From contig NZ_JBBYXK010000005.1 of assembly GCF_039655875.1 (NCBI RefSeq), forward strand, positions 186,001 to 250,000: a stretch of DNA of 64,000 nt, read 5' to 3'. Below, piece after piece: positions 2,894-52,876 of this stretch; positions within the stretch are counted from its first letter, which is position 1; each line of letters begins with the position of its first letter. The notes under the pieces are model-generated. The model did no database searches. It saw nothing but the letters and a program-made list of their open reading frames with translations, and had not been told where the DNA came from. The position numbers and the translations under genes were made by a program. This stretch comes from Emcibacter sp. SYSU 3D8 (GTDB taxonomy: Bacteria; Pseudomonadota; Alphaproteobacteria; SMXS01).

Positions 2894-3184
2894 TCAGATG
2901 CTGGTGCCGGCTCGTTCGGCGGATTTGGCCCGCGCGGCATCCTTGTCCGTGAAATACAGCGCATTGATTTCAATGAAATCCTTTGCTGCCGGCGGAATCT
3001 CGTGATCGGCGAAAATCGCGCCCACGGGACACGCGGAAACGCAGACGCCACAATCGATGCACTGCTCCGGCTCGATATAGACCATGCGGTCCTCATCTTC
3101 CTGGTAGATGCAGTCTACCGGACAGACCTCGATGCAGGACATGTCCTTCACGTCGATGCAGGCGTTGCTGATTACGTAAGTCAT
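2894..3184 (-). CDS. 7Fe-type ferredoxin ([3Fe-4S][4Fe-4S])
   Basis: This is a 96-residue electron carrier. Cysteines are at positions 9, 17, 21, 25, 42, 45, 48 and 52, in the C-x7-C-x3-CP and CxxCxxC-x3-CP pattern of Azotobacter FdI-like ferredoxins. In that family three cysteines hold a [3Fe-4S] cluster and four hold a [4Fe-4S] cluster. The open frame extends far upstream antisense to the P450 at 3476, but only this part looks like protein. The gene is divergent from that P450, and such ferredoxins often donate electrons to bacterial P450s, so partnership is a reasonable inference. No ferredoxin reductase is in the window. Confidence 0.92.
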   Translation of the reverse strand: MTYVISNACIDVKDMSCIEVCPVDCIYQEDEDRMVYIEPEQCIDCGVCVSACPVGAIFADHEIPPAAKDFIEINALYFTDKDAARAKSAERAGTSI

Positions 3185-3383
3185 TGTTCTCCCGAGCCTC
3201 AAGCTTGCTTGGCCGACCCGGCACGGTCGGCTCGCTATTTCATCTTCCCGCGACCTTATTGTAACACCTAGGCGGCAAAGCCCCAGACCCGAAATTCGCC
3301 CGGTGGCGGCACGCTGAGGCGGTTGCTTCCCCGTACGACGCGGTGTCGTTCCGACGCGCGCATTACGCTCGCGGGACCCGGTC

Positions 3384-3399
3384 AAGTCAAGCATGACTT
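3384..3399. promoter_or_regulatory. Candidate operator of P450 module 1: inverted repeat AGTCA-N4-TGACT
   Basis: The sequence AAGTCA-AGCA-TGACTT is an exact 6-bp inverted repeat with a 4-nt spacer, followed by more T. It lies 77 nt upstream of the first P450 start, in the region divergent with the ferredoxin gene. The same AGTCA-N4-TGACTTT layout recurs upstream of the second module at 6333. That suggests a shared dimeric repressor or activator, which is not visible nearby. Confidence 0.5.
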
Positions 3400-3475
3400 T
3401 ATCCGGCGTTGCTATGGGGCTGGGCAAGATGTAACGTGCGCTTGGGGAAAAGTCAGACATGAACGGGGATTGCAG

Positions 3476-4927
3476 ATGAATACGGAACCCTTTGCGGCGG
3501 TATTCGCGCGCGCGCTTGGCGCCGATGCCGGGGATTTGACGGAAAAGGCAGCGGACGGCGACTTCCAGGATATCTTTCCCCTGATGCCGGTGGGTGAACG
3601 AGTCGACATGGGCTCGGCGCCCGATGGCACCCCGCTGATCGATCCCCGCATTTTCTTCTCGGCAGAGTTCCGCCGCAACCCGTGGCCCTATTACCGGCTG
3701 ATGCGCGATCATTATCCGGTCTACTTCAACCAGCTGAACAACACCTATTACGTCACCCGGTACGACGACATGACCGAGTGCTATTTCGACGACATCGGTT
3801 TCAACACGATACCGAAGGGATCGTCGAACGGCGTGCTGGGCAACGTCACCCATGAACTGAGCGGCGTCGAACATCGCCGCCGGCGCAACCTGTTCGGCCA
3901 GCATCTTGTCGGCAAGGCGCTGGAGAACCGCGTGCCCGCGATCGAGCGCCTGGCGCAGGAGATGATCGACGACTGGGCCAGCGTGGATGCGCCGTGGTGC
4001 ATTACCAACGGCAACGTCCGGACCATCGAACTGGGCCAGGCCTTCGCCGATGCGTTCCCCGTCCGGGTCGTCTGCGACGTGCTGGGCTTTCCCAAGGAAG
4101 CACGCGGCAACTTCGTCTACTGGTACAATTCCATCATGGGCGGTCTCGGCGCCTCGGAAACCCACAAGCAGGGCATGGAAGCGCGCCAGCACCTCGAGGA
4201 TTACGTCGAATCCATCGTCGAGGAACGGCGCGCGCGTCCCACCTTCCTCTACGACAATGACGGCAACAAGCTCGGCAAGGACATCATCTCGAAGCTGTGT
4301 GAAAGCCAGGTGGACGGCGACTTCCTGTCGACCGAGGAAATCACCGCGCTGATCGCGCTGGTGGTCGCCGGCGGCGGCGAGACCACCCGCGGCACGCTGA
4401 TGAACATGTGGTACAGCCTGCTGCAGAAGACGGATCAGGCCGAAGCGGCGCTGGCTGATGAATCCCTGTGGGATGCCGTATTCCATGAGACGCTGCGCCA
4501 CTCGAACCCGATCGGCGGCCAGCCGCGCCACGCCACGTTCGATGTGCAGATCCACGGCATGACGGTGCCGGCGGGCTCGCTGATCGAGATGGTCAACTTC
4601 TCCGGCAGCCATGACGAGCGGATCTTCGCCGATCCGGACAATTTCAACATCTTCCGGGCCGACCTCTACACCGGAAAACTGCTGCGCAGCGGCTTCCGCA
4701 AGGAGGGCAAGTGCAGCCATATGGCGTTTGGCGTCGGCCCGCATATGTGCCCGGGCGCATGGATTTCGCACCAGGAAGCGGTGGTGGGCTCGAAGATCCT
4801 GTCTCGGACCATGAAAAACCCCCGGATCAACCGCGACCGCATGCCCAAGGACATCGACGGCGTCAGCCTGGCGCCGATCGGCATCAACAAGACCCGCGAG
4901 CTTTGGCTCGACTACGATCTGACCTGA
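3476..4927 (+). CDS. Cytochrome P450, module 1 catalytic member
   Basis: This haem-thiolate monooxygenase has 483 residues. ATG 3476 was chosen because a GGGGA ribosome site precedes it and the paralogue at 6424 aligns from there; the frame is open further upstream. The I-helix oxygen-activation motif is AGGGETT, the K-helix ExxR is ETLRH, and the haem loop FGVGPHMCPG places the ligand Cys at residue 425. All key residues are intact. The substrate is unknown. It lies 10 nt upstream of a P450 homologue without the haem cysteine, so the two are almost certainly co-expressed. The 6424 gene is its closest relative in the window. Confidence 0.95.
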   Translation: MNTEPFAAVFARALGADAGDLTEKAADGDFQDIFPLMPVGERVDMGSAPDGTPLIDPRIFFSAEFRRNPWPYYRLMRDHYPVYFNQLNNTYYVTRYDDMTECYFDDIGFNTIPKGSSNGVLGNVTHELSGVEHRRRRNLFGQHLVGKALENRVPAIERLAQEMIDDWASVDAPWCITNGNVRTIELGQAFADAFPVRVVCDVLGFPKEARGNFVYWYNSIMGGLGASETHKQGMEARQHLEDYVESIVEERRARPTFLYDNDGNKLGKDIISKLCESQVDGDFLSTEEITALIALVVAGGGETTRGTLMNMWYSLLQKTDQAEAALADESLWDAVFHETLRHSNPIGGQPRHATFDVQIHGMTVPAGSLIEMVNFSGSHDERIFADPDNFNIFRADLYTGKLLRSGFRKEGKCSHMAFGVGPHMCPGAWISHQEAVVGSKILSRTMKNPRINRDRMPKDIDGVSLAPIGINKTRELWLDYDLT

Positions 4928-4937
4928 GGCAAGCGGC

Positions 4938-6308
4938 ATGAGCACTGATGAGAAGCAGGCGGTCAGGCCGCCGTCCTACGGGGCCGGCGCCCCGGACAAG
5001 GACGCGTTTACCGGCCGCAACGGCGTGCCCCTGTATACGAGGAACGGCAACCAGAACGATTACCGGACCTATGAGGTCTATCAGCGCGAGCGGGTCAAGG
5101 AGGCCACCGACAAGATCCGCCCGATCCAGTTGATATCGCCCGAATTCATCAAGGACCCCTATCCGGTTCTCGAGATCCTGCGCGAGAATTATCCGTTCTA
5201 CCGCGACTGGCTTGGCAACTCGTTCTGGGTCACCCGGTATGATGACGTGACATCGATCTTCACCGACGATGCCAATTTCGAGACACGGCCCAAGCGCTGG
5301 TTCTATGGCATCGAGGACCTCGGGCGCGATCTGGGACAGGAAGTGCCGGTGCTGACGGCGCAGGCCGCCCGGATCGATGCCAATGTGGCGCGCATCGCCG
5401 CCGAGATCGTTGACGGCTTCAGGGCCAATGGCGGCGCCGATCTTGCCATCGACTTCGCCGCGCGCCTGCCGTTGGAGTTGCTCGCCTGCGTGCTCGACCT
5501 GCCGAAGGAGGATTTCCCCACATTCGTCGATCGCTACTGGCGCATGCAGCGCGGCGCCATGTGGGAGCCGAAAAGCCGGCAGGCCGGACTCGGCGCCATC
5601 CAGGAACTGGTCGAGTATTTCCGGCCCATCCTCGCGGCACGGCGCGCCCGCCCGGGAGACGATCTCCTCTCGGCGATCGCCGGCCTCGACCTCGAGGACG
5701 GCCCCGCGACGGCGGAAGACGTGGTTGTGACCCTTCTTGAGCAGGATCACGAGACCCTGCATGGCGGCATCGCCAATATGTGGCTCCAGTTGATGACGCA
5801 TCCGGAGCAACTCGACTTGGTGAAGCGCGAGCGGCGCATGGTGAAGTTTGCCTGGCTGGAAACGCTGCGGCATTCCACGCCGGTCGTGACGGCTAACCGC
5901 TTCTCGAGACACGAAGTCGAACGGTTCGGCCGGCTGATTCCGATCGGCGCCCTGCTGCATTGTTCGGCCGCCGCCGCCAACCGCGATCCGCGCCAATACA
6001 AGGAACCGGACCGGTTCATCGTCGGCCGGAAGGACCTGTGCCAGCGTGAGCCGCGCGGCCAATACCGGGCCGACGGTTTGCCTGCCGGCTTGGCATTCGG
6101 CCTGGGCAAGCCCACCAGGCATCCGGCCGTACCGGAAGACCGTCCGCGCTCCCTTTATGCGCTCTGCCGTGACACCGCGACGACAGCCTCGAACGTGCTC
6201 CTCGAAGCATTGCCGGACCTGCGGCTAAAGCCTGGCGCCACGCCGGCATTGCGCAGCCTGCGGCTTGGCGAGATGCATACGTGCTGGCACCTGCCGGTGG
6301 TGTTCTGA
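4938..6308 (+). CDS. P450-family protein lacking the haem-ligand cysteine, module 1 partner
   Basis: The 456-residue protein has the P450 fold signature but degenerate active-site motifs. The K-helix ETLRH is kept. The haem loop reads FGLGKPTRHPA, so residue 394, where the axial Cys belongs, is Arg, and the preceding His is Pro. The I-helix segment is EQDHETLHGG instead of AGGGETTRG. It therefore should not bind haem in the normal way. A conserved Cys in KDLCQREPRG lies about 29 residues earlier. Known Cys-less P450 homologues such as EryCII and DesVIII act as activator subunits. By analogy this may be a structural or allosteric partner of the P450 just upstream; that is inference. Confidence 0.88.
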   Translation: MSTDEKQAVRPPSYGAGAPDKDAFTGRNGVPLYTRNGNQNDYRTYEVYQRERVKEATDKIRPIQLISPEFIKDPYPVLEILRENYPFYRDWLGNSFWVTRYDDVTSIFTDDANFETRPKRWFYGIEDLGRDLGQEVPVLTAQAARIDANVARIAAEIVDGFRANGGADLAIDFAARLPLELLACVLDLPKEDFPTFVDRYWRMQRGAMWEPKSRQAGLGAIQELVEYFRPILAARRARPGDDLLSAIAGLDLEDGPATAEDVVVTLLEQDHETLHGGIANMWLQLMTHPEQLDLVKRERRMVKFAWLETLRHSTPVVTANRFSRHEVERFGRLIPIGALLHCSAAAANRDPRQYKEPDRFIVGRKDLCQREPRGQYRADGLPAGLAFGLGKPTRHPAVPEDRPRSLYALCRDTATTASNVLLEALPDLRLKPGATPALRSLRLGEMHTCWHLPVVF

Positions 6309-6332
6309 CCGCCGCAAGTCCAGCAATTAACC

Positions 6333-6346
6333 AGTCACGTGTGACT
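6333..6346. promoter_or_regulatory. Candidate operator of P450 module 2: inverted repeat AGTCAC-GT-GTGACT
   Basis: This is an exact 6-bp inverted repeat followed by TTT, 77 nt upstream of the second module's first start codon. It shares the AGTCA-N4-TGACTTT pattern and the same 77-nt distance to the start with the site at 3384. It sits in the 115-nt gap between the modules, so module 2 probably has its own promoter. Confidence 0.5.
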
Positions 6347-6423
6347 TTTGCCTGATTGCCAACCCATCATCGAGGATGTAGGTTGACCGCTCCGGCCCAA
6401 CCTGAACCGAATGAGGCCTCCGA

Positions 6424-7896
6424 ATGGACTCCGTCACCTCTTTTCTCAGCACGATTGTCGAGAACGCCGACAAACCGAATGAGGGCAACGCCCCTTCGTC
6501 CGCGACCCATGCGCCGCGCGCGCAATCGGTGTCGGCCCACGACTTTCCGCTGATGCCCGTGGGCGAGGCGTATGACATGGGCCATGCGCCCGACGGCACG
6601 CCGCTGATCGACCCGCGAATCTTCAATTCCGCCGAGTTCTACCGGAACCCGTACCCGTATTACAAAATCATGCGGGACCATTATCCGGTGTTCTTCGACA
6701 AGCTGCACAATTGCTATTACGTCACCCGCTACGACGACATCACCACCTGCTATTTCGACGACGAAGGCTTCAACACGATCCCGAAGGGGTCGTCGAGCGG
6801 TGTGCTCGGCAACACCCAGCTGGAGTTGAGCGGCGTCGAGCATCGCCGCCGCCGCAACCTCTATGGCCAGCACCTGGTCGGCAAGTCCCTCGACAACCGG
6901 ATGCATGCCATCGAGAGCATCGCGGAAGAGATGATCGCCGATTGGGACAATCTGGATGAAAGCGTCGTGCAGGACCGCAACGGCGTCCGCTCGGTCGCCA
7001 TCGGCAAGGCGTTTGCCAACGAGTTTCCGATCCGGGTCGTCTGCGATGTGCTGGGCTTCCCCAAGGAATCCCGCAAGAACTTCTTCTACTGGTACAATTC
7101 CATGATGTCCGGCCTCGGCGGTTCGGAGACCCATCATCAGGGCCTCGAAGCGCGCCAGGACCTGGAAGATTATGTCGGCACGCTGGTCGAGGAGCGCCGC
7201 GCGCATCCGACCTATCTCTATGACGCGGCCGGCAACCCCATCGGCAAGGACATCATCTCCAAGCTGTGCGAGACCCAGATCGACGGCGATTACCTGTCGA
7301 CCGAGGAGATCACCTCGAACATCGCCCTGGTGGTGGGCGGCGGCGGCGAGACCACCCGCGGCGCCATCCTGAATATGTGGTACCTGCTGCTGCAGCATCC
7401 GCAGCAGCTCGAGGCCGTGCTGGAAGATCCCGAAGCCATGTGGGACGTGGCGTTCCACGAGACGCTGCGGCATTCGACCCCGATCGGCGGCCAGCCGCGC
7501 CACAACTCGTTCGACATCGAACTGCACGGTGTGAAGATCCCGGCCGGCTCACTGGTCAACATGGTCGACTTTTCCGCCAACCACGACGACCGCATCTTCA
7601 ACGATCCGGAAGCGTTCAATATCTTCCGGCCCGACCTGTACAGCGGCAAGCTGCTGCGCAGCGGCTTCCGCAAGGAAGGCAAGTGCAGCCATATGGCGTT
7701 CGGCGTCGGCCCGCATCTGTGCCCCGGCGCGTGGATTTCGCACCAGGAAGCCGTGATCGGCTCGAAGATCCTGCAGCGCCATTTGAAGAACCCGCGCCTG
7801 AACGTGGACAAGATGCCAAAGGACTTCGACGGCAGCCTGATGCCGATTGGCTTGATCTCGGCCAAGGAAGTCTGGATCGACTACGACCTGGAATAG
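6424..7896 (+). CDS. Cytochrome P450, module 2 catalytic member
   Basis: This 490-residue P450 is a close paralogue of the one at 3476. Long blocks are shared, for example DGTPLIDPRIF, ELSGVEHRRRRNL and GKDIISKLCE. The I-helix is GGGGETT, the ExxR motif is ETLRH, and the haem loop FGVGPHLCPG gives Cys 433. The N terminus is longer and Ala/Ser-rich compared with module 1, then converges at FPLMPVGE. It is followed 9 nt later by a Cys-less homologue, repeating the module 1 layout. The substrate is unknown. Tandem duplication of the whole gene pair followed by divergence is the simplest history. Confidence 0.95.
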   Translation: MDSVTSFLSTIVENADKPNEGNAPSSATHAPRAQSVSAHDFPLMPVGEAYDMGHAPDGTPLIDPRIFNSAEFYRNPYPYYKIMRDHYPVFFDKLHNCYYVTRYDDITTCYFDDEGFNTIPKGSSSGVLGNTQLELSGVEHRRRRNLYGQHLVGKSLDNRMHAIESIAEEMIADWDNLDESVVQDRNGVRSVAIGKAFANEFPIRVVCDVLGFPKESRKNFFYWYNSMMSGLGGSETHHQGLEARQDLEDYVGTLVEERRAHPTYLYDAAGNPIGKDIISKLCETQIDGDYLSTEEITSNIALVVGGGGETTRGAILNMWYLLLQHPQQLEAVLEDPEAMWDVAFHETLRHSTPIGGQPRHNSFDIELHGVKIPAGSLVNMVDFSANHDDRIFNDPEAFNIFRPDLYSGKLLRSGFRKEGKCSHMAFGVGPHLCPGAWISHQEAVIGSKILQRHLKNPRLNVDKMPKDFDGSLMPIGLISAKEVWIDYDLE

Positions 7897-7905
7897 GGCC
7901 CGACA

Positions 7906-9279
7906 ATGAGCACCACAGAAGCGACCCGGGCCGCGGCAGGCACCGGCAAACCTCAGGACGCGGCAGCGCCCAAGATCACGTATGGCCGCAACGGCGTGCC
8001 GATCACGCCGGGCGGCGTGAAGGGGCATGGCTTCCGCACCTACGAGATCCATCAGCGCGAGCGGCTCGGCCAGTCCACGGCCAAGATCAAGCCGGCGCAG
8101 CTGATCTCGCCGGACTTCATCCGGGATCCCTATCCGTTCCTGGAAATCCTGCGGGAAAACTATCCCAGTTACCGGGACTGGCTGGAGAATTCCTACTGGA
8201 TCACCCGGTATGACGATGTGACGTCGATCTTCACCGACGACGCCAATTTCGAGACCCGGCCGCGCCGCTGGTTCTACAACATCGCCGATTATGGCCGCGA
8301 CCTGCGCCAGGAGCTGCCGGTGCTGTTCGCCCAGGCCAAGGCCATCGACGGCAACGCCCAGGCGGTCGCCGAGGAAATCGTCAGTGACATCAGGGCCAAG
8401 GGCGGCGCCAATCTTGGCATAGACTTCGCCGCCCGCTTCGCACTGGAATTGCTGGTCCGCCAGCTCGACCTGCCGACGGAAGACGCGCCGAAATTCTGCG
8501 AGCGCTACTGGCGCATGACCCACGGCTTCAACGTCGACCCGGTCGCCGAACAGGACGGCCTCGCCGCGATCCGCGAGCTGACCGAATATTTCCGGCCCCT
8601 GCTCGCCAGCCGCCGCGCCAACCCCGGCGACGACCTGATCTCGGCGGTTGCCGGCCTCGACCTGGACGGTGGTCCCGCTACAGCCGAGGATCTGGTGGTG
8701 ACGCTGCTTGAAGGCGACCACGAAACGCTGCATGGCGGCCTCGCCAACACGCTGTTCCTGCTGCTGACCAACGCCGGCGAGTTCCAGAAGGTGAAGGACG
8801 AGCGCCGCATGGCCAAGTTCGCCTTCCTCGAGGCGCTACGCCACTCGGCGCCGGTGCTGTCGGCCCGCCGCTTCGCACGCCACGAGGTCGAGCGCTTCGG
8901 CAAGCTGATCCCGGAAGGCGGCCTGATGATCTGTTCGGCAGGTGCCGCCAACCGCGACCCGCGTCAGTACAAGGATCCGGAGAAGTTCATCGTTGGCCGC
9001 AAGGACCTGTGCCAGCGCGAGCCGCGCGGCCAGTATCGCGCCGACGGCCTGCCCGCCGGCATCGCCTTCGGGTTCGGCAAGCCGTCCAGGCATCCGGCGA
9101 TACCCGAGGACAGGCCCCGGTCGATGTATGCCATCACCCGCGACACCGCGACGACGGCACTCAACGTGCTGCTCGACAGCTTCCCCGATCTGCATCTGAA
9201 GCCCGGCGCCAAGCCGGAGTTGCGCTCGCTGAAGCTGTGGGACACCCACACCTGCTGGGACCTGCCTGTCGAGTTCTAA
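7906..9279 (+). CDS. P450-family protein lacking the haem-ligand cysteine, module 2 partner
   Basis: This 457-residue paralogue of the 4938 gene has the same replacements. The haem loop is FGFGKPSRHPA with Arg 395 at the ligand position, the I-helix is EGDHETLHGG, and EALRH is kept as ExxR. The block KDLCQREPRGQYRADGLPAG is identical in the two copies. Retention of identical degenerate motifs in both copies, with the rest of the fold under apparent constraint, argues for a selected function rather than decay. N-terminal residues 1-25 are variable and Ala/Thr-rich. A strong terminator follows at 9309, closing the module. Confidence 0.88.
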   Translation: MSTTEATRAAAGTGKPQDAAAPKITYGRNGVPITPGGVKGHGFRTYEIHQRERLGQSTAKIKPAQLISPDFIRDPYPFLEILRENYPSYRDWLENSYWITRYDDVTSIFTDDANFETRPRRWFYNIADYGRDLRQELPVLFAQAKAIDGNAQAVAEEIVSDIRAKGGANLGIDFAARFALELLVRQLDLPTEDAPKFCERYWRMTHGFNVDPVAEQDGLAAIRELTEYFRPLLASRRANPGDDLISAVAGLDLDGGPATAEDLVVTLLEGDHETLHGGLANTLFLLLTNAGEFQKVKDERRMAKFAFLEALRHSAPVLSARRFARHEVERFGKLIPEGGLMICSAGAANRDPRQYKDPEKFIVGRKDLCQREPRGQYRADGLPAGIAFGFGKPSRHPAIPEDRPRSMYAITRDTATTALNVLLDSFPDLHLKPGAKPELRSLKLWDTHTCWDLPVEF

Positions 9280-16192: not shown

Positions 16193-16789
16193 CTATCCAC
16201 CAAGCCGCTCGATGTCGTCCATGAGGTCCTGTACCGGCTGTATCCTGGCTTGCCGGGCGCGCTGCGGCAGGCCGTTGGATAATACCTGCTCCATCTCGGC
16301 GCGCGCCCGGGCCACCCGGCTCTTGATGGTGCCAACCGGGCAGCCGCAAAGATTTGCCGCCTCTTCGTAGGAAAACCCGCCTGCGCCGACGAGGATCAGT
16401 GCATCCCGTCGCGACGGCGGCAGGTGCATCAGTGCGCGCCTGACATCGTCGAGTGACAGGTGGTGGTCTTGCGACGGCGCCGAGGACAGCGCCCTTTCGG
16501 CGAATGTCTCATCCCAGTCCCCGGAAAATCGCGCCCGGCGAACACCCGAAAGAAACAGATTCCGCAGGATCACGAACATCCACGCCTTGAAATTGGTGCC
16601 GGGCCGGAAGCGGGCCCGGGCGCGCCAGGCATTGAACATGGCGTCCTGCACCAGATCGTCCGCCCGGTCGGCGCTGCCGGACAGGCTGCGCGCGAAGGCA
16701 CGCAGATGCGGAATCAGATCGCGAAGCTGATCTTCGAACTCGGCATCCGTAAGAGAGGGCAACGCGTCGGGTACATCCCCGAAGTCCAT
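16193..16789 (-). CDS. ECF sigma factor, EcfG-like (general stress response)
   Basis: The sigma-70 family factor has 198 residues. Region 2 is LIPHLRAFARSLSGSADRAD followed by DLVQDAMFNAW, and region 4 includes GAGGFSYEEAANLCGCPVGT followed by IKSRVARARAEM. The FSYEEAA-x-x-CGC-x-VGT-IKSRV signature is characteristic of EcfG (ECF15), the sigma factor released from NepR by PhyR. Neither phyR nor nepR is in the window. Five exact EcfG-type promoters lie within 8 kb, which supports the assignment. A 180-nt gap separates it from the Crp/Fnr gene on the same strand, and no EcfG site precedes its own start. Confidence 0.88.
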   Translation of the reverse strand: MDFGDVPDALPSLTDAEFEDQLRDLIPHLRAFARSLSGSADRADDLVQDAMFNAWRARARFRPGTNFKAWMFVILRNLFLSGVRRARFSGDWDETFAERALSSAPSQDHHLSLDDVRRALMHLPPSRRDALILVGAGGFSYEEAANLCGCPVGTIKSRVARARAEMEQVLSNGLPQRARQARIQPVQDLMDDIERLGG

Positions 16790-16969: not shown

Positions 16970-17716
16970 CTATTTGCCGTTGCCGTTGCCGTTCCTGAAC
17001 TTGAGCCGGCGCGGATAGGCATCCAGATGAAGATACGAGGGATCGAAGTCGCATAGCTCAACCAGAGCCTCGATGTCGGTCAACTCGATCCATTGTCCGC
17101 TGCGCCGGATCATGCCTTCGTCGCGGAACCGCTTCAGCGTGCGGTTAACGTGAATCGATGTCAGACCCAGGGCGTCACCAATCAGCGACTGCGTCATCGG
17201 CAGGCGAAATCCGTCGCCGGCACCCTCGTCGACGATCAGCGCCCTGCGGTGCAGTTCCAGCAGGAAATGGGCAGTCCGTTCACCCGCATTGCGGCGGCCG
17301 TTCCGCACAATCTGCTCGCGGAGCATCGCCTCCTCCTGCACCGCCGCCCACCACAGCGCCTGCGCGAGGCGGCCGGACAGATTGAAGATATTGAGCAGGT
17401 CTTCGGCCTTAAAGGTCTTCACCGTCATGTCGGTAATGGCCGTCACCGAATGATCTGCCTCGGCCGCGATGAAGACCTGAAGATCGAAAATATCTCCCGG
17501 CAACAGGACGTTGAGCACCTGACGCCGGCCATCGGACAGCAGGCAGTACCGGATCGCCCAGCCCGTCTCGACGACGAACCCATAGGTCGGCGCATCACCG
17601 GAGACGATGAGGTCGGTCCCGCGCGGCGCCTCCATGATGCGGCCGGGCATATCCAGCAATGGCTTCGCGGTTTCTTCGTCGAGATCGCAGTAGTAACGGA
17701 GTCTCTTCAACAACAT
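16970..17716 (-). CDS. Crp/Fnr-family transcription regulator
   Basis: This is a 248-residue DNA-binding regulator from ATG 17716; the frame continues upstream, but the protein-like part starts at MLLKRLRYYCDLDEE. Residues 20-135 form a cyclic-nucleotide-binding-like beta barrel without the FNR cysteine set. Residues about 150-225 form a helix-turn-helix domain with MTQSLIGDALGLTSIHVNRT as recognition region. It ends in a Gly/Asn/Lys tail. It resembles the alphaproteobacterial Crp/Fnr subgroup that responds to unknown or redox signals. An exact EcfG-type promoter lies 83 nt upstream, so it likely relays the general stress response. Confidence 0.88.
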   Translation of the reverse strand: MLLKRLRYYCDLDEETAKPLLDMPGRIMEAPRGTDLIVSGDAPTYGFVVETGWAIRYCLLSDGRRQVLNVLLPGDIFDLQVFIAAEADHSVTAITDMTVKTFKAEDLLNIFNLSGRLAQALWWAAVQEEAMLREQIVRNGRRNAGERTAHFLLELHRRALIVDEGAGDGFRLPMTQSLIGDALGLTSIHVNRTLKRFRDEGMIRRSGQWIELTDIEALVELCDFDPSYLHLDAYPRRLKFRNGNGNGK

Positions 17717-44290: not shown

Positions 44291-44296
44291 TATAAT
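44291..44296 (+). promoter_or_regulatory. Possible -10 box TATAAT of nsrR
   Basis: This exact TATAAT lies 20 nt before the nsrR start, and the spacer contains the AAGGAAG ribosome site. No good -35 is seen, so the leader would be very short. Confidence 0.4.
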
Positions 44297-52396: not shown

Positions 52397-52876
52397 ATGG
52401 GAGCACCCTTGCCCAAGACCGCCCAGAAATACGATGAGTTGCCCGAGGCGGAACTGGAGGATCTGCGGCTGAGCTTCCTGATCCACGACGTGTCGCGCAT
52501 GCGCCGTACGGCGTTCGACCTGTACATGAAGCCGCACGGCGTCACCCGGTCGCAATGGTGGGTGCTGTCCAACCTGTCGCGCCACGATGGCATGATGCAG
52601 ACCGAGCTGGCCGCCATCCTCGACGTGGGCAAGGTGACCGTCGGTGGACTGGTCGAGCGGCTGGAGCAAGCGGGCTGGGTAGAGCGGCGGCCGGACACGG
52701 CGGACCGACGCGCCAAGCGCGTCCACCTGACGGCAAAGGCCCGCCAGTTGCTGGACGGTATCCGGCAGGCCGGCCACAAGATGAACGAGCTGGCGTTCGA
52801 CGGCCTGTCGCGCCAGAACCGGCGCGATCTGTTCCAGTTGCTCAGCCGGATCAAGGATAACCTCAAGTCCCTTTAG
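52397..52876 (+). CDS. MarR-family transcriptional regulator
   Basis: This 159-residue winged-helix regulator has the recognition helix region MQTELAAILDVGKVTVGGLV and the wing DTADRRAKRVHLTAKA. It likely controls the divergent MaoC-lyase operon in response to an acyl-CoA or aromatic ligand. The ligand is not known. Confidence 0.92.
   Translation: MGAPLPKTAQKYDELPEAELEDLRLSFLIHDVSRMRRTAFDLYMKPHGVTRSQWWVLSNLSRHDGMMQTELAAILDVGKVTVGGLVERLEQAGWVERRPDTADRRAKRVHLTAKARQLLDGIRQAGHKMNELAFDGLSRQNRRDLFQLLSRIKDNLKSL

Follow-up and report, generated by a model that had tools for sequence, protein, structure and literature searches.

Two paralogous cytochrome P450 modules, A1-A2 (3476-6308) and B1-B2 (6424-9279), stand in one cluster within a 64,000-nucleotide stretch of Emcibacter sp. 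SYSU 3D8 DNA (contig NZ_JBBYXK010000005.1, positions 186,001 to 250,000 of the forward strand; hereafter the window), and each is preceded by the same inverted repeat, which raises the question of which protein reads these repeats and with what effect on transcription. In this study, the two repeats, sites A and B, are interpreted as putative operators of a TetR-family repressor, TetR-1, which would be released by a ligand so that the P450 operons are transcribed, and we consider this reading probable. Binding, the promoters, the ligand, and repression rather than activation are what we infer within it.

Exact 14-mers of the form AGTCA-N4-TGACT were found at 3385-3398 (AGTCAAGCATGACT) and 6333-6346 (AGTCACGTGTGACT), with TTA directly after the palindrome at site A and TTTT at site B, which bore out a preliminary description that the same inverted repeat, the same 4-nt spacer and trailing Ts occur at both positions. 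These 14-mers are the palindromic cores of operator A, or O1 (CAAGTCAAGCATGACTTT, 3383-3400), and of operator B (CCAGTCACGTGTGACTTT, 6331-6348), neither of which is assigned a strand. The range of 3384-3399 first given for site A denotes a real site and is longer than the 14-mer by one base at either end, these two bases also pairing (A...T). The gap from operator to ATG is 77 nt at both modules (ATG at 3476 and 6424). In the 4.07-Mb genome, the exact pattern occurred at sites A and B only and its reversed control did not occur at all; the common or random placement that could have undermined the proposed motif was thus not found, and the exact pattern stood only ahead of the two P450 modules. 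The counts with mismatches were at background: with up to one mismatch the window held 2 matches against 0.68 expected (15 of 100 shuffles reached 2), and with one mismatch the whole genome held 22 against 26 for the reversed control. A significance claim based on these counts was rejected and the weight was placed on position and conservation; it is the exact sites, not their loose relatives, that stand out from the genome background.

Conservation was followed in five genomes of the same genus, namely the window genome (G000), L003, L004 and L005, which match G005, G003 and G002, and L069 from G004. The extended motif AGTCA-N4-TGACTTT was kept in 10/10 module promoters, which supported the earlier proposal of a shared operator before both modules. 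The distance to the ATG was 77-78 nt in nine of the ten and 66 nt in L005A, so that the described 77 nt is exact for the two window sites and not for the whole set. When A was compared with B in these genomes, the half-site bases were identical at 10/10 positions, while of the 40 flanking bases on each side only 4-11 upstream and 5-19 downstream matched; this supports selection on the half-sites while the flanks drifted to background identity. The preliminary description had read the differing spacers and flanks alike as a sign of selected half-sites, and this holds for the flanks; the spacer is not random, being M-G-Y-R in all ten promoters though its sequences differ.

Each of the five genomes holds exactly two copies of AGTCAMGYRTGACTTT and the other five genomes of the family hold none; among 385 evenly sampled genomes of the class, only three members of this genus matched it. 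Among the 27 printed regions upstream of modules or P450 genes, 13 carried the exact palindrome: the ten module promoters, G001:C28, where the T run is missing, and L011 and L012, two records labelled Gammaproteobacteria whose P450 is 66% identical to A1. In a third related P450 of G002 (38% identical), AGTCACCCCTGACTTTTT precedes the ATG by about 69 nt, and the six other P450 homologs printed alongside it have no exact site. Record CALQFM020000009.1 (L003), titled Candidatus Kuenenia stuttgartiensis, carries the cluster at 94% identity and matches G005; its title looks like that of a mislabelled bin.

The preliminary description had seen no regulator gene beside the modules and had placed their control elsewhere, and both statements stood up. 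The regulators recognised in the window, a MarR gene at 52397, an Rrf2 gene at 44295, a CRP-like gene at 16970 and an ECF sigma gene at 16193, lie at least 6.9 kb from the modules and were not linked to the sites. No such palindrome was seen by eye upstream of the MarR gene, and window scans allowing one or two mismatches placed no site directly before the other three genes, whose upstream regions were not separately inspected. MarR was considered as the binder because one site has a MarR gene on one side and a P450 on the other (L147, L190), and was dropped since nothing was found to tie it to the two modules. At these loci, G000:C2:350502 (L147) and G002:C19:61322 (L190), the site lies 12 nt before the P450 start, between the P450 and the divergent MarR gene.

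Inspection of the genes around one-mismatch sites led to a TetR gene of G004 with AGTCACTCATGACT 38 nt upstream. An ortholog is present in 10/10 family genomes; the copy in the window genome, TetR-1, is 85% identical to that of G004 and lies on a contig separate from the modules (G000:C1:1134229-1134870, minus strand). In G000, the form AAGTC-N6-GACTT occurred just twice, once at operator A and once 38 nt ahead of TetR-1, a count that is not itself significant given 6 for the reversed control, so that the locations carry the weight; operator B has CAGTC rather than AAGTC as its left half. Of the seven genomes of the genus, six carry the palindrome in the TetR-1 promoter; in G000, G003 and G004 it precedes the start by about 38-39 nt. 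Most of the six copies differ in their spacers, and in G004 the flanks have changed as well.

A matrix built from six TetR-1 promoters, with no P450 site in it, was scanned over the 64-kb window and gave its highest score at operator A (24.8) and its second highest at operator B (17.5), with the next position at 12.5. In the opposite direction, a matrix from 11 P450 operators, applied to 30 TetR loci, scored 14.2-20.4 only for the six TetR-1 promoters and for the promoter of a paralog, TetR-2, in G001 (L204); the next of the 30 loci reached 7.9, and the maximum in 200 random 3-kb stretches was 11.4. The matrix test is not fully independent, since TetR-1 was partly reached via one-mismatch hits: motif hits led to the G004, G000 and G003 copies, and the G005, G006 and G007 copies were not used in finding the gene.

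TetR-1 has an N-terminal TetR_N helix-turn-helix (PF00440, 5.1e-11, 42.6 bits against a cut-off of 24), and its AlphaFold2 model is composed entirely of helices (pLDDT 83.4, pTM 0.76). The 50 listed matches of the model in the PDB were all TetR-type or putative transcriptional regulators, with TM of about 0.4-0.6. By these tested features, TetR-1 is predicted to belong to the TetR-family regulators with a palindromic operator. Among the NCBIfam TetR equivalogs (BetI, RutR, AcrR, KstR, FadR and others) no cut-off was reached, and the best score, for BetI, was 45.9 against 201.3 bits. TetR-1-like proteins are rare, with one found among 398 sampled genomes of the phylum at E<=1e-45 (up to 6 candidates per genome scored). 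In G000, TetR-1 is divergent to another P450 and is near a receptor and an MFS-like gene.

The record L011 links such a regulator with such a module directly. Its TetR gene (4685-5449) is 56-59% identical to TetR-1 and 44% identical to TetR-2, and the genes follow one another as a TonB-receptor/ABM pair, the TetR gene and then a ferredoxin/P450 module carrying AGTCAAGCGTGACTTTT. Together with the same palindrome in the promoter of the TetR gene on another contig of G000, this adjoining ortholog supports control of the modules from elsewhere in the genome. In L011, TCAAGC(A/G)TGA cores lie at 793 and, in the gap that separates the receptor gene from the ABM gene, at 3923; in G000 the unlinked homologs of this pair (55% and up to 59% identical) have TCACGCGTGACTTT in the same intergenic place. 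The TonB receptor and ABM names rest on inspection of the sequences rather than on a family search.

Dimeric TetR-1, encoded far away, would bind AAGTC-N6-GACTT-like palindromes before both P450 modules, and would regulate itself by binding the palindrome in its own promoter. A probably lipophilic substrate or product would fill its ligand domain, upon which the protein would leave the DNA and the P450 operons would be transcribed. Aligned conserved blocks suggest a promoter for module A (TTGCTA, 17 nt, TAACGT; 3409-3437, plus strand) and an internal one for module B between A2 and B1 (TTGCCA, 17 nt, TAGGTT; 6356-6384, plus strand). A sigma-70 consensus scan listed no promoter behind either operator, so both remain a reading of conserved blocks. 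With these putative promoters the operator centre falls near -52 and the main sites lie upstream of the -35 box. Module A has a second, imperfect and weaker site, O2 (TCATGTCTGACTTT, 3449-3462, minus strand), 66 bp from O1 and downstream of the putative -10 box, which is kept with an altered spacer in four of the five genomes and absent in L005A. O1 and O2 would thus bracket the putative module A promoter, and repression there may work by bracketing, while module B would have a single site just upstream of its -35 box.

Several points weigh against TetR-1 as the repressor of these modules, in addition to the reversed-control count and the partial dependence of the matrix test given above. A simple blocking repressor does not usually have its operator upstream of the -35 box. 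In G002, both P450 sites are retained, yet the TetR-1 promoter has no palindrome, and the genes on the promoter side of TetR-1 are different there. The TetR-1 orthologs of G008, G009 and G001, which belong to other genera, have no site. TetR-2 has nearly the same recognition helix as TetR-1 and, judged by that helix, could bind instead. Moreover, 14 of the 27 printed upstream regions lack the exact site, namely G008, two of G009, G001:C5, the single P450 genes of G005, G006 and G007, L007, and the gammaproteobacterial and Acidimicrobiia-labelled L008, L009, L010, L013, L020 and L023.

The position of the main sites leaves open the reading that an activator acts some 52 bp upstream of the putative start, beside poor -35 and -10 boxes, and we regard this as the less likely option by some distance, though a serious one. 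It would agree with the failure of the consensus scan to find a promoter and with the constant 30-33 bp from operator to putative -10 box in module A, module B and the third P450 of G002. However, the site in the TetR-1 promoter lies downstream of the putative -10 box, which is a repressing position, and the second site of module A sits between -10 and ATG. TetR proteins are, moreover, mostly repressors.

The binder of the same operator class may also be TetR-2 (G000:C5:103260-103835), or several TetR paralogs may share one operator code; we judge this unlikely, slightly more so than activation. The TRGAVQ-YFPTT stretch is invariant across 16 sequences of TetR-1 and TetR-2 (TRGAVQ[HY]YFPTT as a common recognition segment), TetR-2 of G001 has CCGGTCATGCGTGACTGT upstream, and the looser motif TCA-N4-TGACTTT lies before many operons. 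A third TetR group, about 35% identical to TetR-1 (G003:C3:35382, L171; G005:C47:7631, L159; G007:C24:14641, L149), carries TCACGCATGACTTT in its own intergenic region, adjoining an SDR-like gene. In G000, however, the fuller palindrome stands at TetR-1 and not at TetR-2, and the L011 TetR protein is closer to TetR-1 (56%) than to TetR-2, both of which favour TetR-1.

An RNA stem-loop, such as an intrinsic terminator after A2, is very improbable. Site B does lie 24 nt past the A2 stop, with an inverted repeat and T run at 6333-6350, and for site A the RNA fold is more stable than those of shuffled sequences (-7.4 kcal/mol, z -2.63); but for site B the fold does not stand out from shuffled ones (z -0.45, equalled by 55 of 200) and the terminator scan lists neither site, and on these two grounds the terminator or hairpin was rejected. 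In addition, no transcript ends at site A, which has divergent genes on its two sides, and the TetR-1 copy lies in a leader. It is just as improbable that the sites are functionless, by chance or as leftovers shared because A and B are paralogous: the 72% identity of A1 and B1 means that the modules once had promoter sequence in common, and the window count alone is not significant, but the flanks are at background while the half-sites are intact in all five genomes, and an unrelated TetR promoter carries the same palindrome.

The operator code may extend beyond the two modules. The looser motif TCA-N4-TGACTTT (TCANNNNTGACTTT) gave 69 occurrences across seven family genomes, where its reversed control gave 7, and 393 against 165 in 94 genomes of the class outside the family; the latter ratio shows the reversed control to be lenient, so that a wider regulon, though probable, is only moderately supported. 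In G000, a crude gene caller put nine of the ten occurrences between genes and left one (L094) unassigned. The neighbours include P450, Rieske oxygenase, enoyl-CoA hydratase, SDR, TonB receptor, RidA, gltX/comEC, TetR and MarR genes, most of them named from their sequences, and their positions are often the same in several genomes. It is possible, though we hold it only tentatively, that a rare TetR lineage with one operator code governs a scattered regulon which couples outer-membrane uptake, the TetR/P450 locus and the duplicated two-part P450 modules with cysteine-less partners. On that equally tentative footing, the genes which stand side by side in L011 would lie apart in G000 yet be linked through the operator.

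TCACGCGTGACTTT or a close variant was also observed between putative gltX and comEC genes in six genomes (G000:C1:378384-378397, listed together with its orthologs L154, L142, L166, L169, L170 and L188), which is a strange target for a catabolic regulator.

Within the modules, A1 (3476-4927, plus strand; PF00067, 2.1e-25) is a cytochrome P450 with the haem cysteine (FGVGPHMCPGAW), and family search and motif comparison likewise identified B1 (6424-7896, plus strand) as a P450 with this cysteine and A2 (4938-6308) and B2 (7906-9279), both on the plus strand, as P450-fold partners without the haem-thiolate cysteine. In A2 and B2, an FGxGxPSxHPAxPED-like stretch takes the place of FGxGxxxCPG. The cysteine was missing in all 30 partner copies shown, from 26 loci besides the window (at least 45% identity to A2), in records labelled Alphaproteobacteria, Gammaproteobacteria and Acidimicrobiia. 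The resemblance of these partners to P450-derived glycosyltransferase activators was far under the cut-off. A divergent ferredoxin gene (2894-3184, minus strand; Fer4) starts about 200 bp from operator A. G000 is strikingly rich in P450 genes, with 43 places matching A1 at E<=0.001.

Several known systems resemble the one proposed here. By sequence, TetR-1 is closest to AcrR/TtgR/SmeT-type TetR repressors, which control efflux pumps, with about 33-46 bits that fall mostly in the helix-turn-helix (TRGA(V/I) recognition segment). PsrA-type TetR operators have the same 5-N4-5 layout as the present sites, with five-base half-sites around four bases, and a different half-site (GAAAC-N4-GTTTC). EdcR of Caenibius tardaugens is a TetR repressor of estradiol degradation; it is likewise a one-component regulator from the same bacterial class, proposed to work through a palindrome before catabolic operons and, with less strength, at its own promoter (PMC8700777). 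Unlike the present system, in which the palindrome is AAGTC-N6-GACTT and the candidate regulator lies on another contig, EdcR is encoded inside its cluster and its proposed palindrome TnnCnnTACnAnTnGTAnnGnnA overlaps the -10 box, and sites A and B do not match that consensus (PMC8700777). Among the matches listed, Rv0078/EthR2 of Mycobacterium tuberculosis is one of the nearest solved folds to the predicted TetR-1 model; a single palindromic region serves it to repress a divergent gene and probably its own gene as well, and two dimers occupy a 21-bp site (PMC6016246). Its sequence identity to TetR-1 is about 20%. In the open-access literature searched for the motif together with TetR or P450, no paper was recognised as describing this operator.

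In conclusion, an orphan palindrome becomes a testable regulator-operator pair, and the dispersed catabolic genes of an uncharacterised, P450-rich lineage are tied into one predicted unit. The candidate regulator would offer a handle on the inducer and hence on the substrate of these P450 pairs, in which one partner is cysteine-less, and the combination of regulator and operator may find use as an inducible expression system.

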